A stretch of DNA of 24,267 nucleotides, from the IMG/VR virus record IMGVR_UViG_3300013132_000253, positions 1 through 24,267 of that record. One strand, written 5' to 3'. The position numbers and the translations under genes were made by a program. The DNA is from a virus. Shown here piece after piece: positions 8,941 to 23,739 of this stretch; the stretch's first letter is position 1; every line of letters begins with the position of its first letter. The notes beneath the pieces are model-generated. The model was not told the origin of the DNA and did no database searches. It worked only from the letters and a program-made list of their open reading frames with translations.

Positions 8941-10302
8941 TCATGAAGGTATTAATCCATTCTTATTAATAACATCTGGTACCAAATCATTTCTAGGAAC
9001 ATCTCTAACATCTGGAGTTAGATCATTCTCAGGCACCGTTCTTTCTCCAGGTGGAGGAATAAGACGTTTACCCGTTGGCGCAGGAGGAGCAGCAGTTATT
9101 GTTATATCTACGCCCAATACTTTGCCTATTGGATCATTTGAAAAACCAATATCGGTATAGAGATAAACAAATTGATCAATTTCATCAACTGAAACTACTG
9201 TGATTGTTTCTCCAGAATAAGTTAATTGATCTCCTGCGTTTACAACAGATCCAGTAATAACTTGAAGAGATGGTGTATCTGTTTGTACAACTACTTGACC
9301 ATTTACTGGCGCATCTCCTAGTGTTACTTCGGTTCCTAATATTTTAGTTACAGGAGATGTTGTAAATGCACTATTAATGTTTATAGCGAAATAATTTTGG
9401 TCGCCTGTTATATCTGTTGTTTCTGTTATATATCTACTTTCACCATTAAAGTTTAATTTATAGCCGCCATAATTGTAGTTTGGATCTAAGGCAGTAACTG
9501 TAGGTGTAACATATAGTGTTCCATCGCTATATTGATAGATTTCACTAGCAACTGGTTCTCTTAGATATGTAACCGTAGATAATCCTAGAACTGGGGCAGG
9601 ATCAAATGCTGTATTTGATTTTAAGTTTGCTCCATCTCTACGAAGCCAATATTGTTGCCCACTATATTGAACATATGCTCCATTGACTGGCCATGTGTAT
9701 GGATTTACTCCTTGAAGAATAATTGAAGGTTCTGGTGGTGGACCTTCTTCGCCGCCACCACCGCCTCCTCCTGAACTTGCGGTAACGTAGCTAAGTATTT
9801 TATAACTTGAACCAGAGACAGCCGTAACGCCTGGAGCTACCACTATATCTGATCCTATTACTTTTCTTATAGGATTTGTTGTAAAGATATCATTTAAAGT
9901 AAGTTGATATGTTGAAAAAAGTAAATCTCCACCACCACCAAATTCGGCGTTTGTAATCAATCTTGTTTCGCCGCCATATTCTAAGAAATCACCGGCTCCA
10001 GCACTAGCGGTTACATTTACAAATAATTTTTTTGCTGGAGATATGCTTTGAGTTATTACCTGACCATTAGAAGCATATCCTGAGAATGTTATAGTTGACA
10101 CATCAACTGTAGGTGCTGGATCTAAAGCTGGTGTAGCAATAAAAATTCCACCACTTTCTTGTTGAAAATATATGTTAGAACTATATTCCATGAAGCCTTT
10201 GGCTCCATCGGTTGCAATTGCTCCAGATAAAGTATAGTTGGTGTTTTTTTCACCAATTAAACTGTTTATTGTATAGCTTGATCCACTAACTAAGTTTGCC
10301 AT
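8941..10302 (-). CDS. Repeat-containing beta-rich virion-type protein
   Basis: A 453-aa protein, Gly/Thr/Ser/Val-rich and free of cysteine. It has an internal duplication: residues 36-154 (ending IFTTNPIRKVIGSDI) resemble 209-326 (ending AFTTSPVTKILGTEV), and 357-402 (ending GFSNDPIGKVLGVDI) repeat the last part again. A Gly7 linker at 178-184 joins the halves. The C-terminus has a VPENDLTPDV / VPRNDLVPDV repeat. A strong ribosome site (GGAGAAAAAT) precedes the ATG, and an intrinsic terminator follows, so it is a single-gene unit with expected high expression. Such beta repeats are usual in decoration, fibre or baseplate-decoration proteins; which of these is not decided by sequence. Confidence 0.75.
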   Translation of the reverse strand: MANLVSGSSYTINSLIGEKNTNYTLSGAIATDGAKGFMEYSSNIYFQQESGGIFIATPALDPAPTVDVSTITFSGYASNGQVITQSISPAKKLFVNVTASAGAGDFLEYGGETRLITNAEFGGGGDLLFSTYQLTLNDIFTTNPIRKVIGSDIVVAPGVTAVSGSSYKILSYVTASSGGGGGGGEEGPPPEPSIILQGVNPYTWPVNGAYVQYSGQQYWLRRDGANLKSNTAFDPAPVLGLSTVTYLREPVASEIYQYSDGTLYVTPTVTALDPNYNYGGYKLNFNGESRYITETTDITGDQNYFAININSAFTTSPVTKILGTEVTLGDAPVNGQVVVQTDTPSLQVITGSVVNAGDQLTYSGETITVVSVDEIDQFVYLYTDIGFSNDPIGKVLGVDITITAAPPAPTGKRLIPPPGERTVPENDLTPDVRDVPRNDLVPDVINKNGLIPS

Positions 10303-10556
10303 ATTTTTCTCCTGTTTTTACTATTTCTTTTATTTTCAATTGGAATTGGTTTTTTAATGTTTGGCATAAGTTTGAAAATAAATTCAAAATTAAATATTGA
10401 CAAATTTTTAAATAATTAATCTTTAGAAACAAAAATATTATTAATTAAATTAATAAGGAAATATTTCCTACAAATAACAAAAAATAGTGTTTATTATAAA
10501 TTTAAGATTTTGCAATAAGAGTGGAACCCTACCCTATATAATAAGAGTAAGAAGAT
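10303..10556. promoter_or_regulatory. AT-rich divergent intergenic region with palindrome and short repeats
   Basis: This 254-base gap is the longest gene-free stretch. It separates the divergent 453-aa gene and the first HDxxH paralog, so it must hold promoters both ways. It contains TTGACA at 10397-10402, without a convincing -10 partner, a 14-base perfect palindrome AGGAAATATTTCCT at 10456-10469, a nine-base direct repeat AATAAGAGT at 10514-10522 and 10540-10548, and TATAAT at 10537-10542 just upstream of the plus-strand gene. No open frame of note is seen. Confidence 0.45.
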
Positions 10557-11642
10557 ATGATCCTGTTAAAAGAGTATATTAAATTAATTGTTGAAGAACT
10601 GATAAACGAGGACATTGATGTTAAAAAACTATCTCCTTCAATGATTGGCATTTATTCTCTAGCCCAAGCAATGAATAAGTTAATATATCTGGGGGCTGCA
10701 TTACCTGGAGCTCTTCAAATAGATATCATAGATGCTGGCAAGGGAATAAAATCTGCTCCTATGACTACATCTAAAGAGAGAAAATCTGGACTAAGTTTTC
10801 AATCTGATCGTAGTGGTTTTAAACTTTATCTCAATCCAAGTTTTAAAAGCCCCAGAATGATTGGCGATAGTGAAACTCATGATCTTATTCATGCGTTTAC
10901 TGGTCATTTAGCCAAAAAATTTGGAAAAAGAAAGCAATCGATAGAGCAAAATAACCAATACACTGCGACTCCATCAGAGTTTAATAGGACACGTCTTGAT
11001 AAAGATGCTATGAGACTTTATAATGATGCTTTTAGGAAAGCATTTAACTTTGCTCCGCCGGATGAAGTTTTTACAAATCCTTTCAAAATGTCTGAAGACA
11101 ATTATACGGATTGGTTTATGAATTTATTTGTTAAAGAATTTACTGACAAAGAAGAGAAAAAGAATTTTACCTTATATGATATTAGGCTTTTATCACGAGA
11201 TACATATAATGCAGTTTTAGGTGATAAATTTTCACCAGGCAGACTTAGTAAAAGATATTATGTCAGATATGAAAAATTTAAAAAACCTTTTGATTTTACC
11301 AACTATAGCCAAAGAGATTTCCCTTTTCGCGCTCCTCTTCCAGATATAAAATATAATGAATCACTTGAAGATGAAGAAGAACTTGGGAATAATATGTTAT
11401 TTAAGATTAAACAATATGTGACTCAAGGAAAAAAGATACCTGATCCAGAAGATATAGCAAAGAAGATAAGAGAATCATATAAGAAATCTCTTGGATTGAC
11501 AAAAATTAGTCCAGATGAATTTTGGCACCGTTATGATACTGATGAAGTTGAAAATTCAATGAAAACATTATTTGAATTATATAATGAATTTCTTGACAGA
11601 TACAAAAAAGCTCAAGCAAAAAAAGCAGAAGGTACTAGCTGA
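10557..11642 (+). CDS. HDxxH-motif protein, paralog A, with N-terminal tag
   Basis: A 361-aa protein. Residues 1-20 (MILLKEYIKLIVEELINEDI) are the amphipathic tag. Residues 106-117 read ETHDLIHAFTGH, giving H108, D109, H112 and H117; this is identical in paralog B and among the best-conserved parts of the pair. HDxxH with following TG resembles the zinc motif of Coq4-like proteins, but the glutamate that follows at a fixed distance in Coq4 is not in the same place, so the match is only suggestive. The rest is charged and helical, with shared blocks (SPSM-G-YS-AQA-NKL, IDIIDAG, EVFT-PFKM, LYNEFL-RYK). It is not a known protease motif (no HExxH). A metal-binding or enzymatic role is inferred. 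Confidence 0.8.
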   Translation: MILLKEYIKLIVEELINEDIDVKKLSPSMIGIYSLAQAMNKLIYLGAALPGALQIDIIDAGKGIKSAPMTTSKERKSGLSFQSDRSGFKLYLNPSFKSPRMIGDSETHDLIHAFTGHLAKKFGKRKQSIEQNNQYTATPSEFNRTRLDKDAMRLYNDAFRKAFNFAPPDEVFTNPFKMSEDNYTDWFMNLFVKEFTDKEEKKNFTLYDIRLLSRDTYNAVLGDKFSPGRLSKRYYVRYEKFKKPFDFTNYSQRDFPFRAPLPDIKYNESLEDEEELGNNMLFKIKQYVTQGKKIPDPEDIAKKIRESYKKSLGLTKISPDEFWHRYDTDEVENSMKTLFELYNEFLDRYKKAQAKKAEGTS

Positions 11643-11717
11643 AAAATTTCAGTATGATAAGAATACTACATTCAGATATTATTTATCAATGTCAATCTGC
11701 CTTGAATACTTATCTAT

Positions 11718-11774
11718 ATGACTAGATTGCTTATAATAAATAGAAACATTTGATTTATTAACGATATTATTAAA
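11718..11774 (+). pseudogene. Remnant of the neck-protein gene 5' end
   Basis: Translated from the ATG at 11718 this reads MTRLLIINRNI*FINDIIK, against MARLFITNREVQFINDITK for the start of the intact neck gene at 14905: 12 of 19 positions identical in frame, with a TGA at codon 12. Similarity stops after codon 19. The DNA differs mostly at third positions, so the copy is old. It lies 75 bases after paralog A, the same side on which a four-codon copy follows paralog B. It is best explained as the tail of a duplicated [paralog + neck] unit. Confidence 0.75.
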
Positions 11775-11792
11775 ACTAATCCCGCATCATCT

Positions 11793-11818
11793 GAATTGTT
11801 TAATAAACAAAACAATTC
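11793..11818 (+). repeat. Hairpin in the leader of paralog B
   Basis: GAATTGTTT (11793-11801) and AAACAATTC (11810-11818) form a perfect nine-base stem with an eight-base loop, ending 17 bases before the ATG of paralog B. There is no T run after it, so it is not a standard terminator. It may affect translation or transcript processing, or be chance. Confidence 0.35.
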
Positions 11819-11835
11819 CATTTAAAGAACATTAT

Positions 11836-12996
11836 ATGAAATTGCTGAAAGAGTATATTAAATTAATTGTTGAAGAACTAATAAATGAAGATATAAATAT
11901 CGAACGTTTGTCTCCTTCAATGCTTGGTGTTTATTCTTTTGCCCAAGCTATAAATAAGTTGCAATCTGAAGGTAATGCTTTGCCAGGAGCTATTCCTATT
12001 GATATCATAGATGCTGGTGAAAACATTAAATCTGCTCCTCTGACAACAGGAACCGAACGTGAACATGGAACGAGTTTTCAATTTACCGGAAGTAGCTTTA
12101 AGCTTTATTTAGACCCAGCGGCTAAAGGTCGTATGAACAGCGCCGATGAAACTCATGATCTTATTCATGCTTTTACTGGACATTTAGCTAAAGCATTTGG
12201 TAGAAGAAGACAATCGATAGAAAACAGTGGACAGTACAGTATAAGTCCTTCAAAATTTAATAAAATTATCCTTGATAAGAATCAGATAAAACGTTTTAAT
12301 GAAGGTTTCGAAAAAGAATTTGGTTTTTCTTTACCGCCAGAAGTATTTACTAAGCCTTTTAAAATGCAGAAAGAAGAGGTAGATGAAGAAGACTATTTGG
12401 AATGGTTTCAAACAGAATTTGCCACTGCTGAAAATTATAAAAAATATAAAACACACAAAGAGACAACAGCAGAGTCTCTTAGTCTTAAAGATTTTAAGTT
12501 AACCATGAAATTGGTTGCATCTCGTACATGGAATGCATTATTAGGCGATGAATTTCGTCCAGGAATCCTTGGACAAAGATATTATGCAAAATACAAGAAA
12601 AAAGATCATAAATATGATTTCACTAATTTTATTCAACAAAGCCAAGCATTTAGAATTAATCCAGGAGAAGTAGAATATAAACAATCTGCTGAAGATGAAG
12701 AAGAAATTGGAAATAAAATGAATGATTTGATTGGCGCATATATTAGTAAATCAGACCCTATTCCTTCAGCAGAAAGCGCAGCAAAAGCTATTATACAAAA
12801 TTATAAACTCTCTTCTGGATTGACTGGACTATATGCAAGCGATTTTAAACATCGGTTTGATACTCCAGAAGTTAAATCAGCGATGATAAGATTATTCCAA
12901 TTATACAATGAATTCTTGAAAAGATATAAGAGCGCAAAAGAATTAAGCAATAGAAAAAATTTGCCGAAAAATTCTAATAATGAAAATATTAGGTAA
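11836..12996 (+). CDS. HDxxH-motif protein, paralog B, with N-terminal tag
   Basis: A 386-aa paralog of the preceding gene, roughly 40-50% identical by eye over the whole length. It shares the tag (MKLLKEYIKLIVEELINEDI), ETHDLIHAFTGH at 105-116 (H107, D108, H111, H116), IDIIDAG and the C-terminal LYNEFLKRYK. A 32-base DNA identity covers the tag, and a 24-base identity covers the HDxxH region. It has an insertion after KPFKM (about residues 180-215) and a longer Asn/Lys-rich end. Together with the decayed neck start between the pair, it points to tandem duplication. Both copies are intact, so both are presumably kept by selection. Function unknown; a virion-packaged metal-binding protein is a possibility. 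Confidence 0.8.
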   Translation: MKLLKEYIKLIVEELINEDINIERLSPSMLGVYSFAQAINKLQSEGNALPGAIPIDIIDAGENIKSAPLTTGTEREHGTSFQFTGSSFKLYLDPAAKGRMNSADETHDLIHAFTGHLAKAFGRRRQSIENSGQYSISPSKFNKIILDKNQIKRFNEGFEKEFGFSLPPEVFTKPFKMQKEEVDEEDYLEWFQTEFATAENYKKYKTHKETTAESLSLKDFKLTMKLVASRTWNALLGDEFRPGILGQRYYAKYKKKDHKYDFTNFIQQSQAFRINPGEVEYKQSAEDEEEIGNKMNDLIGAYISKSDPIPSAESAAKAIIQNYKLSSGLTGLYASDFKHRFDTPEVKSAMIRLFQLYNEFLKRYKSAKELSNRKNLPKNSNNENIR

Positions 12997-13037
12997 AGAC
13001 AAAATCTTTATAAGATTAGCCTGTCCAAATAATTGTC

Positions 13038-13052
13038 TATATGACTAGATTA
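13038..13052 (+). repeat. Left copy of neck-start repeat at endonuclease gene edge
   Basis: TATATGACTAGATTA matches the neck-gene start TATATGGCTAGATTA (14902-14916) at 14 of 15 positions. It also shares TCTATATGACTAGATT exactly with 11713-11728. It overlaps the stop codon (TAG on the minus strand) of the endonuclease gene. It encodes M-T-R-L before similarity to the neck gene ends, so it marks one boundary of the inserted gene. Confidence 0.7.
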
Positions 13053-14883
13053 ATTTTTTTATCCACAATCTTTGTCCAGCATCATAAATTTTTATATAAT
13101 GTTTTTCTTGAGCATATTCTTTTTCTGTTAATTTTCTTGAATCCATGTTTGCCCTACAAGAAAGTCTATTAAATGTTTTTTTATAATTGGTCCATTTCCA
13201 ACTTAAAACTTCTTTTGATATAAAAAAATTATAATTTTTAAGATGTTTGCCGGTACCATATCGCAAATCAACCCAGTTATGAATTTCGTTTATTTGAAGA
13301 TTGTGAGTTTTTATAATATTTTCAAGAAAAGATAAGAGTTTTCCGAATCCTCCAATTACATTGGTGTTGATTTCGCTACAAAATCTTTCTATTTTACAGA
13401 TTTTTTTATGGGGATATATTTTATAGGAAAGAATACAAACTAGTTTTTCCTTTAGATTAGCGTCTTTAAAATAAAGACCAACATGTTTGGCACTTGTAGA
13501 ACCCATCATATGATTTTTTTCCAGAAAAACATTAGCTTCGGTTTGAGCTAATTCTTTTATCGTACATTTTCTTGCATATATTTTTTTTTCACTTTTTCCA
13601 AGTGCATTTTGAACTATCGATTTAATAATAGCTGGACATTCTTCCAATTCGCTGGAATAAAATTGAAATAATCTTATATTTTTTTCTTCAAAACCTTTTC
13701 GGAGTTCAAAATGTGCTTCTTTTTTTCGAAACGCTTCTGAGTGCCAATACAACCCATCTATGTTTAATGCAAGATTATTGGATAACATAAAATCTGGTCT
13801 ATAAGAAAGTTGAGTTTCAGGTATTGCTTTGTTCCAATGTGAAATTCCAAACATTTCTTGAATCTTAATTTCAAGACTAGTCTTGTTTTTTTTAAATTCT
13901 TCAATAAAAGATTCCATCTCTTCCATTGTAATTTCTTGTTTGTTTTTATCTCGAAGCCAATTAATAACGGTTGTATATGAAGGACCATCTTTGTTTTCTT
14001 CGATATATGATTTAACAGAAAGTTTTTTGTCATATATTTCGTATTTTATGAAGTGACTATCAAAAACCCTTTTGGAGTGTTTTGTGTTGTTACGAAACAG
14101 TCGTTCTGGAGTTTGTACAAAATAATCTCCAATCACTTTGTCAAAAAATTTTGCTGGCTTAGTCCAGCCAATGTAATTTTCTTTATCCAAAGATAAGTCT
14201 ATTCTCTTTGTGTTTAGAATACATCTCTTTACAGCTTCTTCATATGAAATAATATTTCCATTATGTTGCCTGGATACGATAATTTTTTTTAAGCTGTCTT
14301 TTTTTCCAACGCTTTTATTATTATAAACAAGATTTGCTTGTGCGGTCCATGTGTTTCCTGTTTGTTTGTTTTTAAATAAACATTTTTTTGACCAACCATA
14401 GAATTCTAATATTTCTATAAATTCAAGGTTAGCTTTATTGAAAAGCTCCTGCGCTTCTTCTTTTGTCTTTGGACCTATTTGTTTTTTACGTCTCTCTGGA
14501 TGTGTCGTATTTCTTCTTATGACATTATTGAAACAGGCTTCAAAAGTTTTATTAACAATTTTATCAAAAAACAAAGCCTTTTTAGATGTGCCGTTATATT
14601 CTAATAAATCTAAATCTTGTCTTTTATTTCCATCAGGACCATGCAGCTTATTTTTTGCCTCTTCTAGAGAAGCAATTTGCGAATCGGATTTATTTTTTGT
14701 ATATCGAATAAAATTACAGGGTTTTGACCAACTCTCTTTGTTGAGCTTTACATTTAACACTTTACATGGCTTGTTCCAGCCAAAATATTCTAAGATAATA
14801 ATATCTTTTCTTCCATGTGCTTCAAGTTTTTCTTGAGCCTTTTGCTTTTCAATATTGTTGTCCATAAGAAGGATTTTAATCAT
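13045..14883 (-). CDS. Homing-endonuclease-like protein (Vsr/EDxHD-type nuclease core)
   Basis: A 612-aa protein. The N-terminal half has four degenerate repeats at about 31-62, 94-125, 159-190 and 237-267, each of the form LEYxGWxKPCxF...W/F...N, resembling DNA-reading repeats of other phage endonucleases. A helix-turn-helix-like segment follows at 287-312 (SVKSYIEENK, SYTTVINWL). The nuclease core lies at 335-412: SLEIKIQEMFG, YRPDFML, IDGLYWHSEA, then KNIRLFQFYSSEL, the pattern of Vsr-like EDxHD homing nucleases. The C-terminal 180 residues (CTIKEL to SCRANMDS) form a further conserved-looking domain of unknown role. It lies opposite to the late genes, between two copies of the neck start. 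No intron was recognised. Start codon choice (14883 or an internal ATG at 14865) is uncertain. Confidence 0.8.
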   Translation of the reverse strand: MIKILLMDNNIEKQKAQEKLEAHGRKDIIILEYFGWNKPCKVLNVKLNKESWSKPCNFIRYTKNKSDSQIASLEEAKNKLHGPDGNKRQDLDLLEYNGTSKKALFFDKIVNKTFEACFNNVIRRNTTHPERRKKQIGPKTKEEAQELFNKANLEFIEILEFYGWSKKCLFKNKQTGNTWTAQANLVYNNKSVGKKDSLKKIIVSRQHNGNIISYEEAVKRCILNTKRIDLSLDKENYIGWTKPAKFFDKVIGDYFVQTPERLFRNNTKHSKRVFDSHFIKYEIYDKKLSVKSYIEENKDGPSYTTVINWLRDKNKQEITMEEMESFIEEFKKNKTSLEIKIQEMFGISHWNKAIPETQLSYRPDFMLSNNLALNIDGLYWHSEAFRKKEAHFELRKGFEEKNIRLFQFYSSELEECPAIIKSIVQNALGKSEKKIYARKCTIKELAQTEANVFLEKNHMMGSTSAKHVGLYFKDANLKEKLVCILSYKIYPHKKICKIERFCSEINTNVIGGFGKLLSFLENIIKTHNLQINEIHNWVDLRYGTGKHLKNYNFFISKEVLSWKWTNYKKTFNRLSCRANMDSRKLTEKEYAQEKHYIKIYDAGQRLWIKKLI

Positions 14884-14901
14884 TCTGAGAATATATTTAA
14901 A

Positions 14902-14916
14902 TATATGGCTAGATTA
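14902..14916 (+). repeat. Right copy of neck-start repeat
   Basis: TATATGGCTAGATTA covers the ATG and first codons (M-A-R-L) of the intact neck gene. With 13038-13052 it forms a direct repeat directly outside both ends of the endonuclease gene, one base differing. Confidence 0.7.
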
Positions 14917-15588
14917 TTTATCACCAACCGAGAAGTACAGTTTATAAATGACATCACGAAAGAAGTGATAAAAGATATAGTAGGACAATTTATATATTAT
15001 TATCCGATATCGACATTAAAAACGCAAGTTCATCCAATATACGATGAAGCTGTTGAAAAAATATTTGAAAATCCAATTAAATTAGAAGTTCTAGCTGGAC
15101 AACCAGAATGGGAAGCAAAATCTAATCAATTTGGTTTTGAGCAGACAAGAAAATTAGAATTATATGTTCAAGTAAGAGATTTACTTGATAAAGGATTTAC
15201 TGTGTCTGAGGGCGATTATTTTGTTTATGGTGATATGGCTTATGAGATAATGACAGCCTTACAGATTAATAACATTTATGGTCAAGTAGATTATGAGATT
15301 GGATATAAATTATCTGCAAGATTAGCTCGTCAAAATGAATTTAATGCAAATTTCTATAAGAAAAAGATTGTTGATAATAATCCTAAGTTTGAAGAAACAG
15401 ATGTTCAGAAGACATTTGAACAACAGCGTGGTCTTGAGTCTAATGAATCTGACGGACTTACTGGTGACGTAAGACAATTAAGAGAAAGACTTAAAGAAGA
15501 TATGGCACCTATAGCATTAGATGAGGGTCCAAGAAAAATAGTAATTGATGAATCTAATAAGAGTAATAAATTCTATGAGGATGATTGA
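14905..15588 (+). CDS. Neck / head-completion protein, T4 gp14-like
   Basis: The open frame continues upstream to 14815, but those codons lie inside the endonuclease gene; the ATG at 14905 gives a 227-aa product starting MARLFITNREVQFINDITKE, a start repeated in the upstream remnants. The body is beta-rich in the middle (GFTVSEGDYFVYGDMAYEI) as in head-tail connector and stopper proteins, with an acidic Lys-rich end (KSNKFYEDD). I recall closely similar starts in proteins annotated as neck proteins in marine T4-like phages. Position directly before the gp15-like and sheath genes matches T4 gene order. It caps the portal and provides the head side of the head-tail joint. Exact assignment between gp13 and gp14 types is inferred. 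Confidence 0.7.
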   Translation: MARLFITNREVQFINDITKEVIKDIVGQFIYYYPISTLKTQVHPIYDEAVEKIFENPIKLEVLAGQPEWEAKSNQFGFEQTRKLELYVQVRDLLDKGFTVSEGDYFVYGDMAYEIMTALQINNIYGQVDYEIGYKLSARLARQNEFNANFYKKKIVDNNPKFEETDVQKTFEQQRGLESNESDGLTGDVRQLRERLKEDMAPIALDEGPRKIVIDESNKSNKFYEDD

Positions 15589-15604
15589 TTAACTACTTAT
15601 TAGT

Positions 15605-16816
15605 ATGTCTAAAAACGTTACCAGACAAAACATACCACAAGATCCACAGAATCCAAAAGATCATTTAAATTCTGGATATGAAGATTCTCCTTCTGATTTT
15701 GGAATTCCTGCATGTGGGATAGAGGATTGTGATTTTTCTGTATTTAATTTATTTGATAAAACCATACCTTTTACTAAAAAAGTGATTGCAGCTTCTGCTG
15801 GTCCTGTTGAGTTAAATAAGCCATTTGTTATATTAGCTACCGGCGAAAGATTTGCTTTGGCTAAGAGACTTAAGCCACCTAGAGATAAAAGAACCAAGAA
15901 TTTAGTTCTTCCAGCAATATCAATAAGAAGAACAAGTATCGAACAGACATCGGATGATATTACAAGAAGAGGCATTAATCAATTTACTGGTAATTTAATA
16001 ATCAAAAGGCGTTTAGATTCCCAGGATACCTATTTTCAAAATTTGATTAATAAATTAGGATTACAAAATCTAGGTGCAGATTTCCCAGAAACAACAAGAA
16101 AAACTGGTGAATATAAAAATGAACTTGAAGTTAGGCAAGGAGGGCTATTAACTCCATATAACAATCAAAACATTTTTGAAGTTATTAGTATTCCTCAGCC
16201 CCAATTTTTTACTGCAACATATGAGGTAGTATTTTGGACAAGTTATACACAGCATATGAATTATTTAATTGAAACGCTGATGAGTTCTTATCTTCCGCAA
16301 GGAAAAATGTGGAAATTAGAAACTGATAAAGGATATTGGTTTATGGGTCATTTTCAAGATCAATATCAAAATGGAGAAAATATAGATGATTTTACCGAAA
16401 CCGAAAGATTAATAAGATATAATTTTTCAATTAAGGTAAAAGGATATTTATTAGCTCCACAAGGAGCATCAAACATAGTCCCTGTACGAAAATGGATTTC
16501 GGCACCAAATATTTCTTTTGAATCTATAGATTTTTCTTCTGAACTATCTCCTAAGAGAACTATAGACAAATTGAAAGACATTCCAAAAGAAAAATTTGTG
16601 TTATCTGACATTGAAAGAGATCCTAAGACCGCTCAAACGCCTACTTATAATCAGAAATTACTTTATAAAAAGGAAGTAATAAATCCGATAACTGGTAAAA
16701 AACAGATTAAATACGCAAGAATTGTTGATTCCAATAGTAAAAAAGGAGAAACCGTATTTACGGCATCAGATATAAAAACACTAGAGGAGTTTTTAGCTAC
16801 TTATAAAACCCCCTAA
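15605..16816 (+). CDS. Tail sheath stabiliser / tail completion protein, T4 gp15-like
   Basis: A 403-aa protein. The central region (about 95-290) has a beta-rich core with RRTSIEQTSDDITRRGINQF, then TATYEVVFWTSYTQHMNYLI and LMSSYLPQGKMWKL, the arrangement of T4 gp15-type tail terminator proteins, where a strand is followed by a helix that counts subunits round the ring. T4 gp15 has 272 residues; this one carries an extra N-terminal segment of about 90 residues (with PACGIEDCDFSVF) and a basic C-terminal tail. It follows the neck gene by 16 bases and precedes the sheath genes. The role would be to cap the tail end and hold the last sheath ring. The assignment rests on pattern and place rather than on a named motif. 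Confidence 0.6.
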   Translation: MSKNVTRQNIPQDPQNPKDHLNSGYEDSPSDFGIPACGIEDCDFSVFNLFDKTIPFTKKVIAASAGPVELNKPFVILATGERFALAKRLKPPRDKRTKNLVLPAISIRRTSIEQTSDDITRRGINQFTGNLIIKRRLDSQDTYFQNLINKLGLQNLGADFPETTRKTGEYKNELEVRQGGLLTPYNNQNIFEVISIPQPQFFTATYEVVFWTSYTQHMNYLIETLMSSYLPQGKMWKLETDKGYWFMGHFQDQYQNGENIDDFTETERLIRYNFSIKVKGYLLAPQGASNIVPVRKWISAPNISFESIDFSSELSPKRTIDKLKDIPKEKFVLSDIERDPKTAQTPTYNQKLLYKKEVINPITGKKQIKYARIVDSNSKKGETVFTASDIKTLEEFLATYKTP

Positions 16817-16841
16817 AAAATAAAATGAAATATATGTAGAT

Positions 16842-16874
16842 TTCAGAATTTAGAAAAACTAATTACATTCTGAA
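16842..16874 (+). repeat. Inverted repeat upstream of sheath 1
   Basis: TTCAGAAT (16842-16849) and ATTCTGAA (16867-16874) are perfect inverted copies with a 17-base loop, in the 99-base gap before the first sheath gene. No T run follows, so a terminator is unlikely; a leader structure is possible. Confidence 0.35.
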
Positions 16875-16915
16875 GTGTTAAAGGCAGCAGCCAAATGCTC
16901 AAGTAAGAGGATAAA

Positions 16916-19900
16916 ATGGCAGAACAAATTTTTAAATTTCCAGGTTTTTTTGATAGAGAAATAGATTTAACCGCACAAACATCATCTCCATTAGGTATTC
17001 CCGCCGGAGTTGTTGGCGCATCTGAAAAGGGTCAAGCTTTTATTCCATACACTGTGGGATCTTTTAGTGATTTCATCACTAAGTTTGGTGATTTAGATCC
17101 AAATTTAGCTGCTCCATATGCTGTAGAAAAATTTCTACAAAATAGAAATGCACTTACTTTCATAAGAGTGCTCGGTGCAGGTTCTAATACAACAACTGTT
17201 GATTTCGAAGCAACTCGTACAAAAGGAACAGTAAAAAATGCTGGTTTTAAAGTTGTCGGAACTGCTGTTGGCGGCACTGACGGTAGACAAAAAGGAGCAG
17301 TACAGTTTATAGTTGCAAAACATAAAGTATCCGGCTCCGAAGCTATCGGATTCCCTGTATTTACAGATAATCAAAGCTACCCAAATATGACTTCTGGCAC
17401 GGCTGATGATGAAGTAAATGTAGTACGTGCTCAAATATTCTGTGCCTCTGATACTAGAGTAATGTTATTAAGTCACAATGAAAGCTGGGTGAGTTCTGTA
17501 GATGATTTCGCTACTGCAACCGGTTCTGTAGGAGTTAATTACGTACCTGCTAGATTTAAGTTGGTAATTTCTTCTTCTCAAGGTGCAGCCTTCGGCAATT
17601 CAGATGGATTTGCAGGATTAAGAATTTTTACAGCCAGCTTGGATCCAAGTGATCAAAACTATGTTGGAAAACTTCTAAATAAAGATCCACAAAAATTTGA
17701 AGAAGAAAGACACTATCTCTATTCTGATTTTGCTGTTGATGCAGAAATTGCTTCACTGTCAACAGGATCAGATTGTGTTGCAGTTCTTTCTGGTTCTAGT
17801 TCAACTTCCCTTGCAGGAAATTCTTTCCTAGAAACTTATGGAAGATTTGATACTAGATATACTACTCCTTCAACTCCATGGTTTATTTCTCAACCATTTG
17901 GCGGCATAGAATATGATCTTTTTAGAATTGAATCTCGTGACGATGGCGCATATGCAAACAGCAGATACAAGATCTCAATTACAAATATAGTTGCTTCAAG
18001 TAATCCAAATAATCTATATGGAACATTTACTGTAGCAGTTCGTGAATTTGGTGACAGCGATTTCCAGCCAAGAGTAATTGAACAATTTATAAATGTAACT
18101 CTTGACCCAAATTCTGATACTTATATTGCAAAAGTAATTGGCGATAGAAGTGCATACTTTAATTTTGATGTACTAGAGCCAAGTGATAGAAGAATTATCA
18201 CAAGTGGCAAACATCTCAATAGATCAAATTATATTAGAATTGTAATGAATCCAGAGCTAGAAGCAGGCAATATTCCTGTAAATGCATTACCATTTGGATT
18301 CAGAGGTCCACAACTATTAAATACCAATTCAACATTAACCGACGTTACTGGATCGGTCTTTAGACTAGCTGGCTCAGGCTCTGCTGTTGGTTCTAATGGA
18401 GATCTACTTGGCTCTATAGTTCCACCTATGCCTTATAGATTTAAAGTTACAAGAGGCGAAGTAGATTCAAGTCCATCTTATGTTGGAGAACCTGGTATTC
18501 TAGAAATAGCAGATTCAAGATATTACTGGGGTGTTAAACTTGAAAGAACAACAGACGTTCTCAATTCAAATATTGATCCCCTACAAAATAACTTAATCAG
18601 ATCTCTAACACAGTTTGGTGGTATCGCTAAACTTGATGCTATGGTAACTGGTTCTTATACTGATCAATTTAATAGCAATAAGTTTACTTTAGCTAAGGTT
18701 GCTCTATTCAATTCTTCTATTTCAGATGTAACAGCATCCTCAAATGTTCACATGAGAGAAGCATCTTACATAAGAGACGGAGTGCCAGATGTTACAAATT
18801 ATACAATAACAGATGTTCTATCAGGTAATCCAAGAATTACATTTGCAAGCTTGCTTCAAAAGGCACCAGCATCAACTTTTAATATATTCTCAAATTATAC
18901 TAAATTTACGACTATAATGCTTGGCGGATTCGATGGAACAAATATTCTAGACAAGAATGCTGCATCTCTAAATGATAGAGCTACGTCAACGGAAAACAGA
19001 GGAGCAATAAGAGGTAATTGTAATTCTTCTTTCATCTCTCCCGGTCTTGCAACTAACGTAAATGGTGTTGGCATACAAAACAATACTGTAGCTTCGTATA
19101 GGACTGCCCTAGACATAATCACAAATCCATTATTATCAAATGCTAATCTCTTGGCAATACCAGGGCAGAGAGATCCATTGGTGGTAGATTATGCTAGAAG
19201 TGTAAATCAAGATTATGGTCTTTCCATGTATCTAATGGATGTACCAAACTATAATGATCAACAACAAAGAATTTGGGACGGCGATCCTGTAAACTCAGGA
19301 ACAATAATCAGCGTACCAGATACTGCGGCTATATTTGAATCAAGAAATATAGACGATACACTAGTTGCAGCATACTTCCCTGACATTGTTATTAATGACG
19401 CAAGAAACAACAGAAGAGTTACAGTCCCAGCATCTATTGCTGCCCTAGCAGCTCTTGGATACAATGATAAAGTTGCATTCCCGTGGTTTGCTCCTGCTGG
19501 TTTTAATCGAGCAGCACTAGATTTCGTATCTCTTACAAGAACAAGATTAAATCAATCTGATCGTGAACGATTATATCAAGTTAGAATCAATCCAATTGTT
19601 AAGTTCCCAAGAGAAAATTATGTAATCTTTGCTCAAAAAACACTTGATAATAATCAAACTTCTCTTGATAGTATTAACGTTCAAAGAATGGTTCTTGATG
19701 TCAAGAAACAAGTAATTGATGTTGGTAATAGATTGATCTTTGAACAATTGACACCAGCATTAAGACAACAATTTGTTAAGAATGTTACACCAATCCTAAC
19801 AAATGTTCAGAGTAGAGGTGGTTTACAACAATTCAAAATTATCTGTGATAACACAAATAATACAAACTTGGATGTTGAAAACAATAGAATGAATGCAAAA

Positions 19901-19981
19901 ATCTTACTAGTACCAGTTAAAGCAGTAGAATTTATTGCAATCGACTTTATTATCACAAGAGCGGGTGTGGAGTTCGTCTGA
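16916..19981 (+). CDS. Tail sheath protein 1
   Basis: A 1021-aa contractile tail sheath protein. The N-terminal part (FPGFFDREIDLTAQ, GIPAGVVGASEKGQAF, TFIRVLGAG at about 80-90) and the C-terminal domain (PWFAPAGFNRAALD, INPIVKFP, NVQRMVLDVKKQVID, KAVEFIAIDFII) match known sheath proteins such as T4 gp18. The middle contains DDGAYANSRYKISI and YGTFTVAVREF, typical sheath motifs. T4 gp18 has 659 residues, so this copy has large surface insertions in the middle. AAGAGG stands five bases before the ATG. It is followed 36 bases later by a paralog. It forms the outer contractile tube. Confidence 0.95.
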   Translation: MAEQIFKFPGFFDREIDLTAQTSSPLGIPAGVVGASEKGQAFIPYTVGSFSDFITKFGDLDPNLAAPYAVEKFLQNRNALTFIRVLGAGSNTTTVDFEATRTKGTVKNAGFKVVGTAVGGTDGRQKGAVQFIVAKHKVSGSEAIGFPVFTDNQSYPNMTSGTADDEVNVVRAQIFCASDTRVMLLSHNESWVSSVDDFATATGSVGVNYVPARFKLVISSSQGAAFGNSDGFAGLRIFTASLDPSDQNYVGKLLNKDPQKFEEERHYLYSDFAVDAEIASLSTGSDCVAVLSGSSSTSLAGNSFLETYGRFDTRYTTPSTPWFISQPFGGIEYDLFRIESRDDGAYANSRYKISITNIVASSNPNNLYGTFTVAVREFGDSDFQPRVIEQFINVTLDPNSDTYIAKVIGDRSAYFNFDVLEPSDRRIITSGKHLNRSNYIRIVMNPELEAGNIPVNALPFGFRGPQLLNTNSTLTDVTGSVFRLAGSGSAVGSNGDLLGSIVPPMPYRFKVTRGEVDSSPSYVGEPGILEIADSRYYWGVKLERTTDVLNSNIDPLQNNLIRSLTQFGGIAKLDAMVTGSYTDQFNSNKFTLAKVALFNSSISDVTASSNVHMREASYIRDGVPDVTNYTITDVLSGNPRITFASLLQKAPASTFNIFSNYTKFTTIMLGGFDGTNILDKNAASLNDRATSTENRGAIRGNCNSSFISPGLATNVNGVGIQNNTVASYRTALDIITNPLLSNANLLAIPGQRDPLVVDYARSVNQDYGLSMYLMDVPNYNDQQQRIWDGDPVNSGTIISVPDTAAIFESRNIDDTLVAAYFPDIVINDARNNRRVTVPASIAALAALGYNDKVAFPWFAPAGFNRAALDFVSLTRTRLNQSDRERLYQVRINPIVKFPRENYVIFAQKTLDNNQTSLDSINVQRMVLDVKKQVIDVGNRLIFEQLTPALRQQFVKNVTPILTNVQSRGGLQQFKIICDNTNNTNLDVENNRMNAKILLVPVKAVEFIAIDFIITRAGVEFV

Positions 19982-20017
19982 GAATAATAGTTAAATAATA
20001 GAATATTGGAGTAATAA

Positions 20018-22984
20018 ATGACACAAATATCGTTTAAATCTGCTGGAGTCTCAGCGAGAACAATCAATCTAACCGGTCCTACGGCAATACAGCCCACAGG
20101 AATCCCTGCTGGCGTAATCGGACCTTCTCTAAAGGGTCCAGCATATGTGCCAGTAACAGTTGCTACAAGTCAAGACTTTAACGTAATTTTCGGAAACCCT
20201 ACAGATAATTTCAATTATGGACCATTGTCCGTATCTGAATGGCTAAGAAATCAAGGTTCTGCGACCTATATTAGAGTACTAGGAATTGGAAACGGTCAAG
20301 CTAGAACCACCGATAGTCTTAACGCTGGTCGAGTTGTTAATGCAGGTTTCGTAGCTGGTGACGAACAACCAAGAGAAGACGGTAAATTATCAGAAAATTC
20401 TTTTGCTAATGCTGGTGGTGATCTTGGCAGAGCCTATTTCTTAGGTTGCTTTATGAGTCAAAGCCTAAATTCTACTGTCTTTACGGATGCAGGGCTTCCA
20501 AGTGCCGGTGTTCCAGTTGTTAGAGCAGTATTAATGGCTCCATCCGGTGTATTGCTTACTCTATCTTCTGCCAGAGATACAAACAATGCAATTACTTCTG
20601 CAACTATAGGTGCAGTAGGTAGTGCTCTTGGTGCCCCAACTGGTTCTCTTATATTGTCAGCTTCAAGACAAGAATTCGTAATGCTTCTTAATGGACACAA
20701 AGGAAACGATACGCAAAATCCAAATGTCCTAACCGCATCATTTGATATTAATGCACCAAATTATTTCGGTAATGTATTCAATACAGATCCAGATAGTTTC
20801 CAAAAAGCTGGACACTTACTCTATGCAGAATATAAACTATCTCCAAGTTTGGCAGTTCCAACCGGTTCCTCAATTGTTATCGCAGCTTCTGGCAGTACCG
20901 GAGTTGAAAATATTGCATTCCTAGTTACTGGATCTGTAGCTAGAAATTCTGGTAGCTCAACAGCACCAAATTATGAAAACTATGAAGATAGATTCAGAAC
21001 AGCTAAATCTCCATGGATAGTTTCACAACAATTCGGTGGAGCAGTTCAAAATCTATTTAGAGTTCACTCACTAGATGATGGCTCATATCCAAATGCTCAA
21101 GTCAAATTCTCAGTAGAAAATATTACACCAAGTAATACCTCAGATCCTTATGGAACTTTTGATCTTGTCGTCAGAAGCTTCTCAGATAATGACAAAGCAA
21201 AAGTTGTTTTTGAGGCATTTAGAGGCGTTAGTTTGAATCCAGGTTCAGATAGATATATCGCCAAAGTTGTTGGCGATTATAAAACATATTATGATCTAGA
21301 CCAAACTTTGGTTGCACAAAAACTTATTACAGTTGGCGATTATACAAATAATTCAAAATATATTCGTGTAGAAATGGCTGATAAAGTAGCTGCTGCTGAA
21401 CTAGATCCCTCAGCATTGCCATTCGGTGTTCGTGGTCTACCTCATTTAGTTACCTCTGGTTCTGCTCTCTCTTCACAAGTTGATGCAAACTATTATCAAG
21501 TAGCTACGAATATATTCAATGGAACTGTTCAAGTACCAGTTCCGTTTAGACAAAATCTAAATCGTGGAACAGGTGCCGCATTAACCGCAGACCCAGGACT
21601 CTACTGGGGTGTTCAGTTTGAACAAAAAATCTCTGCAACTGAATTAAATTCATCAACTGTTCCAGATCTAACCCTAGAAAGCCTTACAAAATATTTCCCA
21701 GATTTCCAAAAAGGCTATATAAACGTAGTTGTTTCCGATAATGCTGGTGCTCCAGATGGAGCAAATGGTATTGTAGACGCAGATAGATTTAATAACAATC
21801 TATTCTCTCTAGGAAACATCAGAGTACCATATATCTCAGGTTCAACAAGCGTTGATACTGTTAATACAGTAAGCTGGTCTTATGTAAGACAAGGTGGAGT
21901 AACAACAGATACTGCAAACTTTACTCGTGCGCTAGCTGTAGACGATCTTCTAGACCCAACAGTAAGAAGATTGTCTAAATTCAATTTCTGCCTACAAGGT
22001 GGTTTTGATGGCGTAAGAATTTTTGATAAACAAACAAGACTATTAACTGACGTAGCTGTTTATCAAGAAATGCAACACTCAAATCGTGGAACAATTAATG
22101 GTGCAACAGTATCTGCTTATAATAAAGCACTAGACCTAATTTCTGACGCAACAGAAGTCGATGTTCAATTGTTAACAATTCCAGGATTACGTCATCCAAT
22201 TATTACAGATAGAGCATTGCAAGTTGTAGAAAATAGATTTGATGCACTTTATATCATGGATATTCAAGAGAAAGACATAAACAATAATCTAGTATCTTCA
22301 AGTAATCAAATTGTTTCTGTTCCAAATACAGTTCTTGATTTTACAAGCCGTGGAATAAATACCTCATTTGGAGCAGCATACTTCCCAGACGTTGTTCTAA
22401 GAGATTCAGTTAATAACACAGTCCGTCAAGTACCTCCATCAGTTGCTGTTCTTGGAGCATTTGGTAAAAACGACTCTGTAGCATATCCATGGTTTGCACC
22501 AGCAGGCTTTACCAGAGGTGCCCTAGAAACGACCCTAGAAACCTCCGTACAGCTTTCTAGACTGAACCTAGATGATCTATACTCCGCAAGACTAAACCCC
22601 CTTACTTCCTTCCCAGGAAGCGGTGGAGTGGTAGTCTGGGGTCAAAAGACAATGCTTACGGCAGAATCTGCTCTTGAAAGAGTAAATGTTCGTAGACTTC
22701 TCATAGATCTCCGTCGTCAAGTAAAGAGAATTGCAAATCGTATCGTATTCGAACAAGGTCTACCAGAAACGCTCGCTCGCTTCTCACAACTTGTAACACC
22801 AATCCTTAAGAGAGTTCAAGACCAAAACGGTGTTGATCGTTATCTCGTCAAGATTGATACTAGCACTACTACGCAAGCCGATTTCGAGAACAAGACGATC
22901 CGGGGCAAGATTTATATCCAGCCAACTCGTACTCTTGAATTCTTGTCTATCGACTTCGTACTTAGTAACCCTGGTACAATCTGA
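20018..22984 (+). CDS. Tail sheath protein 2 (tandem paralog)
   Basis: A 988-aa sheath protein with the same layout as its neighbour: GIPAGVIGPSLKGPAYVP near the start, TYIRVLGIG, SPWIVSQQFGG, DDGSYPNAQVKFSV, YGTFDLVVRSF, AYFPDVVLRD, PWFAPAGFTRGALE and a C-terminal TRTLEFLSIDFVL. Divergence from sheath 1 is substantial, with the greatest similarity at the ends and in the SPW/YGTF region. GGAG lies six bases before the ATG. From about 22500 to the stop the codon choice becomes distinctly richer in C and G (CTC, TCC, CGT, TTC) than in the rest of the gene. An intrinsic terminator follows the stop. Confidence 0.95.
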   Translation: MTQISFKSAGVSARTINLTGPTAIQPTGIPAGVIGPSLKGPAYVPVTVATSQDFNVIFGNPTDNFNYGPLSVSEWLRNQGSATYIRVLGIGNGQARTTDSLNAGRVVNAGFVAGDEQPREDGKLSENSFANAGGDLGRAYFLGCFMSQSLNSTVFTDAGLPSAGVPVVRAVLMAPSGVLLTLSSARDTNNAITSATIGAVGSALGAPTGSLILSASRQEFVMLLNGHKGNDTQNPNVLTASFDINAPNYFGNVFNTDPDSFQKAGHLLYAEYKLSPSLAVPTGSSIVIAASGSTGVENIAFLVTGSVARNSGSSTAPNYENYEDRFRTAKSPWIVSQQFGGAVQNLFRVHSLDDGSYPNAQVKFSVENITPSNTSDPYGTFDLVVRSFSDNDKAKVVFEAFRGVSLNPGSDRYIAKVVGDYKTYYDLDQTLVAQKLITVGDYTNNSKYIRVEMADKVAAAELDPSALPFGVRGLPHLVTSGSALSSQVDANYYQVATNIFNGTVQVPVPFRQNLNRGTGAALTADPGLYWGVQFEQKISATELNSSTVPDLTLESLTKYFPDFQKGYINVVVSDNAGAPDGANGIVDADRFNNNLFSLGNIRVPYISGSTSVDTVNTVSWSYVRQGGVTTDTANFTRALAVDDLLDPTVRRLSKFNFCLQGGFDGVRIFDKQTRLLTDVAVYQEMQHSNRGTINGATVSAYNKALDLISDATEVDVQLLTIPGLRHPIITDRALQVVENRFDALYIMDIQEKDINNNLVSSSNQIVSVPNTVLDFTSRGINTSFGAAYFPDVVLRDSVNNTVRQVPPSVAVLGAFGKNDSVAYPWFAPAGFTRGALETTLETSVQLSRLNLDDLYSARLNPLTSFPGSGGVVVWGQKTMLTAESALERVNVRRLLIDLRRQVKRIANRIVFEQGLPETLARFSQLVTPILKRVQDQNGVDRYLVKIDTSTTTQADFENKTIRGKIYIQPTRTLEFLSIDFVLSNPGTI

Positions 22985-23009
22985 TAATCAAGGAAAAATA
23001 AACACACAT

Positions 23010-23045
23010 AAGCCATCAGAAATAAATCTGGTGGCTTTTGTTTTT
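23010..23045 (+). terminator. Intrinsic terminator after sheath 2
   Basis: AAGCCATCAG (23010-23019) and CTGGTGGCTT (23028-23037) pair over ten positions (one G-T wobble) around the loop AAATAAAT, followed by TTTGTTTTT. It begins 26 bases past the sheath 2 stop and is the strongest terminator in the window. Confidence 0.85.
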
Positions 23046-23142
23046 GCATAGAAAATACATATTTATAACAGTTAACAAGCAACTTGCTCATCTACTGCTT
23101 CCGCAGTTAACTTTTTAATAAAGTTGCGTGTAAAGGAAATAT
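23046..23142. promoter_or_regulatory. Leader region before the double-tagged gene
   Basis: After the terminator a new promoter is needed here. The region holds a direct repeat CAGTTAAC at 23069-23076 and 23104-23111, and TATTTATA at 23060-23067, which is TATAAATA on the minus strand (a T4-late-like box pointing back toward sheath 2). No plus-strand late box was found. AAAGGAAAT just before 23143 is the ribosome site. Confidence 0.3.
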
Positions 23143-23739
23143 ATGAAAGTTACAATTCAAGAATTAAGAAGTTTAATAGCCGAAGCAATAAAAGAATGTG
23201 GTGATATGTCACCAGAAGAATATATGGATAGACCCATGATGGATAGAGAAGATGAAATGGCTTCTCTAACAAGAAGATCTCGTATGATGCCACCCTATGA
23301 TACAATAAGCGATTTAGCACCAGAAGCAGCCCTAATGTCAGGAACAGAAATCTATGATGAACCTTCAATGGATATGAAAAGCCCAAGAGATGAAAAACTA
23401 ACATTACTTCTTCCACTTCAAGAAAAGAAGAAAAGAAAAAAGAAATGGATGCAATCTGCTGTTAAAAAACCAGGTGCATTGTCAAAAGAATTAGGAATTC
23501 CAGAGGAAGAAAATATTCCAATGGGTCTTTTACAAAAGAAAAAAGCAGCTCTTAGCAAAAAAGCAGAAGGAGATAAAAAACTTTCAGCACATGAAAAAAA
23601 ACTTCTTCAAAGAATTAATTTTGCAATAATTGCTAAAAAACAAGCCGGGAAGAAAAAAAAGAAACCAGCTAAAAAAATAGATGAATCCTTCATCAGAAAC
23701 GAAATAGTCAAAATAATAAAAGAAGAATTAAGTAAATGA
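23143..23739 (+). CDS. Lys-rich protein with tag at both ends
   Basis: A 198-aa protein between sheath and tube. Residues 1-18 (MKVTIQELRSLIAEAIKE) are the shared amphipathic tag, and the C-terminus (IDESFIRNEIVKIIKEELSK) is a second copy of the same kind of helix. The middle is Met/Asp/Pro-rich (20-85), then strongly basic with KKKWMQSAVKKPGALSKELG at 100-119. From memory, W-x-[QG]-x-A-[VI]-KKPGAL segments are common in proteins of cyanophages and other large T4-like phages. AAAGGAAAT precedes the ATG. It is transcribed apart from the sheath genes because of the terminator at 23010. Function unknown; the tag suggests virion or prohead association. Confidence 0.75.
   Translation: MKVTIQELRSLIAEAIKECGDMSPEEYMDRPMMDREDEMASLTRRSRMMPPYDTISDLAPEAALMSGTEIYDEPSMDMKSPRDEKLTLLLPLQEKKKRKKKWMQSAVKKPGALSKELGIPEEENIPMGLLQKKKAALSKKAEGDKKLSAHEKKLLQRINFAIIAKKQAGKKKKKPAKKIDESFIRNEIVKIIKEELSK

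Follow-up and report, generated by a model that had tools for sequence, protein, structure and literature searches.

Between two paralogous genes of a phage genome fragment lies a short, decayed sequence that reads like the beginning of a neck protein gene, the complete copy of which is found farther downstream, and the question raised by this locus is how the start of an essential gene came to stand there. The window, that is, the whole stretch of DNA analysed here (24,267 bases), is an IMG/VR record of a tailed phage that carries two tail-sheath genes. The genes of interest are paralog A (10557–11642, plus strand, 361 aa), paralog B (11836–12996, plus strand, 386 aa), a free-standing homing endonuclease gene (HEG; 13045–14883, minus strand, 612 aa) and the complete neck gene (14905–15588, plus strand, 227 aa), and the positions given for all four in the initial annotation hold. 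What is known of how free-standing HEGs and accessory genes first arrive beside essential phage genes comes mostly from T4 crosses. Where natural scars retain the 5' end of the invaded gene, they reveal the position of the break or join, the illegitimate side, the replaced allele and the order of the cassettes.

Identity of the neck gene

Profile searches with the neck protein yielded no Pfam or PHROG family match, and a search of a phage collection with the neck or a paralog protein returned zero matches. A structural model of the neck protein, based on 30 relatives and with a mean pLDDT of 59, matches the T4 portal-neck-tail chain 9mkb_0 with an E-value of 8e-5 and, in the same kind of structure search, the neck chains of many other phages, which bears out the label “neck” that had been assigned from the letters alone. 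In the related loci (denoted here by L and a number), a head-tail adaptor (connector) gene of phrog_211 precedes the neck gene, and the gene order is T4-like, namely connector, neck, next gene and sheath. The gene at 14905–15588 is, judging by the modelled fold and its place between the connector and tail genes, a T4 gp14-type neck protein gene. Its leader (14884–14904, plus strand) includes AATATATTTAAATAT and is common to the window and L001. The tail-sheath genes form a tandem pair at 16916–22984 (1021 and 988 aa, 32% alike), an arrangement that is the same in all close relatives.

Truncated neck-gene starts

The sequence at 11718–11774 (plus strand) opens with an ATG at 11718 and reads MTRLLIINRNI*FINDIIK, that is, 19 codons with an internal TGA, of which 12/19 are identical to the neck start MARLFITNREVQFINDITK. 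This in-frame match had been reported earlier, and both its coordinates and its count were reproduced; the sequence described as identical after both paralogs was likewise found, with TCTATATGACTAGATT present at 11713–11728 and at 13036–13051 within a 22/24 match. As DNA, the remnant agrees with its own neck start at 36/57 positions, a similarity no better than that of other AT-rich sequence of the window (gap versus neck start, p about 0.11; observed score 30, top null 32), so that in the comparison with shuffled sequence proposed in the initial annotation the remnant would fail if DNA were the measure. At the codon level, the scores are far beyond chance: the BLOSUM score against the neck start is 57, whereas no other 19-mer in the six frames of the window exceeds 26, and against all neck starts the remnant scores 44.7, compared with 29.2 for the best unrelated sequence among 2.2 million positions in about 100 related loci, where, outside neck genes, only two other neck stubs score higher. 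The segment 11718–11774 is thus a decayed neck start, derived from the 5' end of a neck gene. Its differences from the present neck gene number 6, 3 and 12 at the first, second and third codon positions, and this excess at third positions (12/19 versus 9/38 for the rest, Fisher p 0.008) indicates that the stub diverged while coding and that decay came later. The remnant is closest to foreign necks (42/57 identical bases for L038, 41/57 for L001 and 40/57 for L011), as compared with the 36/57 for the neck gene downstream of it.

The second neck stub (13041–13052, plus strand) comprises 4 codons (ATGACTAGATTA), the antisense strand of which encodes the last codons and the stop of the HEG. What supports the shorter neck copy noticed earlier at this place is where it lies and the leader that it shares, whereas its length by itself gives no support; for the shortest stubs, of 4 and 7 codons, support comes from position as much as from sequence. 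The leader between paralog A and the first stub (11643–11717, plus strand) is homologous to the leader that separates A from the neck gene in L008 (p 0.0016) and L010 (p 0.005), and the leader between this stub and paralog B (11775–11835, plus strand) is homologous to that preceding B in L011 (0/5000 shuffles as good) and to that preceding paralog D in L012 (p 0.003). These matches on both sides imply that the spacer between A and B consists of an A-to-neck leader plus 19 neck codons joined to a B leader. The leader of the second stub (12997–13040, plus strand) ends in TCTAT, and its similarity to the A-to-neck leader of L010 is insignificant alone (p 0.12). The box TGGAACCCTACC precedes paralog A (10522–10533, plus strand) and is conserved, as TGGAACSCTACC, before most of the relatives' paralogs; it lies just 5' of nearly every paralog (in the window, L001, L010, L011, L012 and, twice, L008), with no further exact match elsewhere in these loci, and is a candidate shared regulatory or recombination element.

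Five further neck stubs, of 7, 8, 11, 17 and 18 codons, were found in the corresponding slot of relatives, which together with the two in the window makes at least seven. The 8-codon stub of L008 lies between D and A and matches the neck gene of L019 at 23/24 bases and its own at 19/24; the 7-codon stub of L012 follows paralog C; and the stubs of L045 (18 codons), L064 (17 codons) and L107 (11 codons) each end in a reverse GIY-YIG HEG. The 4-codon stub of the window also ends in a reverse HEG, of a different family, so that 4/7 stubs lie directly at such a gene, and in the window, L045 and L064 the final codons of the HEG, with its stop, are located in antisense stub DNA. The stub of L045 is found where the neck gene starts in the HEG-free L002, after a gene of another family of the slot (named g318 here), and that of L064 where it starts in the HEG-free L047, after the connector leader. 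Assembly chimeras were ruled out for L008 and L064, which are identical across the junctions to L009 and L063, respectively, from different metagenomes, and for the first stub of the window by its decayed state.

Exchange between phages at the connector-to-neck slot

In relatives, the slot between the connector and neck genes contains paralog A, B, C or D, D with A, D with C, the family g318, GIY-YIG HEGs, or nothing. Two “empty” loci, L028 (6840–7000) and L021 (5380–5559), retain the first codons of A and its last codons with the stop (ATGAACCTAT...CTGTTTGA), the internal deletion leaving a five-codon ORF; these deletions, which form a near-isogenic pair with L010, indicate that paralog A is dispensable. 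Paralog A is also internally deleted in L025, and L023 contains fragments of C and of the HEG of L012. The slot is a hotspot that holds paralogs A–D, HEGs or deletion scars, and its cargo is dispensable and turns over fast. In a number of loci, the neck gene starts with ATT instead of ATG (L012:4912, L017:1244, L023:1036, L036:5553, L039:1401, L040:1507, L041:7001, L043:4009, L048:6411 and L056:510), often just 3' of a forward HEG or a piece of one. The HEG of L012 appears to have captured the neck leader and ATG, whereas in others recoding of the first four codons is complete.

The nuclease gene of the window is an ORF of its own on the opposite strand, with matches to phrog_3339 (2e-33) and phrog_559 (9e-33) and a weak match to Phage_endo_I; by family relation it is a free-standing HEG, outside any intron or intein, with predicted homing activity. 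The similarity between phages changes at this gene: the window and L001 are 87.7% identical from 13053 to 23209 (10 kb), and the similarity stops at the 3' end of the HEG, to the left of which the paralogs are divergent. The junction between the HEG and the neck gene is common to both phages and the left junctions differ, a pattern expected if one side of an exchange is homologous and the other illegitimate.

We consider it probable that 11718–11774 is the left scar of such an inter-phage exchange, likely started by an HEG. In a phage of the A type, A would have stood immediately 5' of the neck gene, an order found in L008 and L010, and this neck gene would have been interrupted within its first ~20 codons. 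The break may have been made by a homing endonuclease at the conserved neck start, a putative cleavage target that we infer from the stub ends, and repaired on the right by homologous recombination, within the neck gene or past it, and on the left by illegitimate, microhomology-based joining. The left end would thereby have become attached, with no real homology between the two, to the B leader of a cassette that came from a B-type phage such as L011, the right side of the exchange would have brought a complete neck gene, and the interrupted neck start would have decayed into the 19-codon remnant, the cargo paralogs travelling along with the exchange. Later, the reverse HEG would have entered the junction between B and the neck gene likewise, leaving the 4-codon stub and, on the right, a complete neck gene. 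As a counterpoint, no reverse HEG itself lies to the right of the stub between A and B of the window or of those in L008 and L012. L011 has an HEG just 5' of B, so a B-type donor with an HEG exists, and the present neighbor of the first stub of the window is B. In L008, the polarity may be reversed, with the connector side homologous and the stub side illegitimate, in which case the common feature is the join and not its direction.

Random illegitimate recombination between phages, in which selection would preserve those with an intact neck gene and HEGs would merely occupy a tolerated slot and play no part in stub formation, is an unlikely explanation, although it fits the general modular-evolution view of phages. 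Illegitimate events are frequent in these loci, as the deletion scars of A, C and an HEG in L028, L025 and L023 indicate, and may be general in this lineage, as one further stub suggests: a 25-codon ORF of the window (MPNIKKPIPIENKRN..., 10290–10367, minus strand) resembles a 5' stub left from an adhesin-like gene, which has 2096 codons in L013, the remainder being gone from the window, where another gene (8941–10302) comes next. This stub, starting at 10367, arose without an HEG, apparently by deletion. Against randomness stand the direct contact of 4/7 neck stubs with a reverse HEG and the distribution of the stub ends, 7/7 of which fall within codons 1–19 of about 227 (for six stubs, the chance under uniform breakpoints is 3e-7); the short lengths could alternatively be due to selection, if longer truncated neck proteins are disfavored. 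The scars make codons 1–20 of the neck gene a definite candidate site, as read from these sequences, for cleavage by several unrelated HEGs, and the stubs taken together suggest a recurrent route of entry for additional genes and selfish nuclease genes, which break into an essential gene at its start so that its first codons stay behind.

The type of process is known from T4 experiments, in which one-sided illegitimate repair with microhomology junctions follows homing-endonuclease breaks (1999 work, as reviewed in PMC2988022). That proposed route to new sites resembles the present proposal in its endonuclease break, its homology on one side and its microhomology on the other; it was, however, observed in a laboratory intron assay, whereas the events considered here are natural and recurrent, involve free-standing HEGs together with cargo paralogs, and leave behind the 5' end of an essential gene as a stub that can still be read. 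HEG-islands (PMC10448857) likewise have HEGs beside essential structural genes, where they mark the edge of the exchange while essential and cargo genes move together, and the similarity of the window to L001 also stops exactly at the HEG; here, by contrast, a single HEG or none is found at the border, and the junction stubs give the polarity and order of events. Target-gene stubs are not mentioned in the passages considered. In such islands, HEGs flank the essential genes on both sides; the window and L001 have one HEG to the left of the neck gene and none in ~9 kb rightward, both records being fragments. HEGs within essential phage genes are also exemplified by mobE in nrdA of phage Aeh1 and mobA in T4 gene 60 (PMC2988022), where both halves of the divided gene still work; here, the complete neck gene on the right makes the left part useless, and it decays. 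SegB-dependent amplification of T6 anti-defence loci (PMC13096335) similarly gives HEG-dependent arrays, truncated gene ends and microhomology junctions; there, however, identical units are amplified in tandem inside a single phage, whereas the units seen here are divergent and of different lineages. The portions of the literature searched do not mention natural scars that repeatedly leave stubs of a single essential gene and are accompanied by divergent cargo paralogs, and such recurrence at one gene is the new part.

Tentatively, and with rather less confidence than in the exchange itself, the HEG and the adjacent complete neck gene can be viewed as a “home and rescue” module, in which the nuclease would cut the conserved first ~20 neck codons of other phages and the differently coded neck gene would restore function. 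Repeated rounds would build up the paralog arrays, and the stubs would then be a record of the order in which the cargo paralogs were added.

Relationships of the paralogs

The initial annotation had proposed that a single ancestral unit, one paralog followed by the neck start, was doubled in this lineage, that the first neck copy decayed and that the second was later broken. The order is exactly as such a tandem duplication predicts: leader, paralog and neck start recur twice with the same unit boundaries, the leaders and stubs align, and both stubs have ACT as codon 2 and share 16 identical bases. Relatives with one paralog, the comparison that had been suggested, have it directly before the neck gene (L010 and L011, the latter with a B-like gene). 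The two units in tandem are real, and what lacks support is their origin from one ancestral paralog in this lineage. In the tree, paralog A of the window is placed with the A genes of L008 and L010 (69% identity, support 100/100), its identity to B of the window is 52%, and the two are not each other's closest relatives; B is 54% identical to the B-like gene of L011, a pairing by identities only, the tree being undecided on B. The stub, moreover, is closer to foreign necks than to its own, its substitutions point to long coding constraint, and like stubs follow D, C and an unrelated family (L045) and precede HEGs. The recurrence of stubs at the same place in unrelated paralog and HEG contexts argues for a repeated process, not a single duplication, and the supposed breakage of the second copy is the insertion of the HEG between the 4-codon stub and the complete neck gene. 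An in-lineage duplication is accordingly improbable, more so than random recombination.

A function of the remnant as a short leader peptide or as a regulatory element that serves paralog B is very improbable: its ATG and leader are retained and an 11-codon peptide could be made, but this would stop >80 bases before B, the neck match continues in frame beyond the stop codon to codon 19, and the other stubs precede different genes and differ in length.

Movement of cassettes between phage lineages, as the HEG-started exchange entails, is indicated by the mosaic structure of C, which is 88–97% identical between L001 and L012 over 300 columns and 55–45% thereafter, the neck proteins of these phages being about 60% alike. 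Comparison of the paralogs with Pfam, PHROGs and PDB sequences gave nothing useful, none was found in bacterial genomes, and a model of paralog A (pLDDT 69) had no significant match in the PDB or among viral structures, with weak metallopeptidase-like matches. Many proteins of these phages share an N-terminal motif, MK(x)nLIIKEA, with I/L-x-E sites (in the window at 2117, 2816, 4209, 5300, 10557, 11836 and 23143, plus strand; in L107 at 5205, minus strand). The motif resembles the capsid-targeting peptides of T4, and the head may be where paralogs A and B are packaged.
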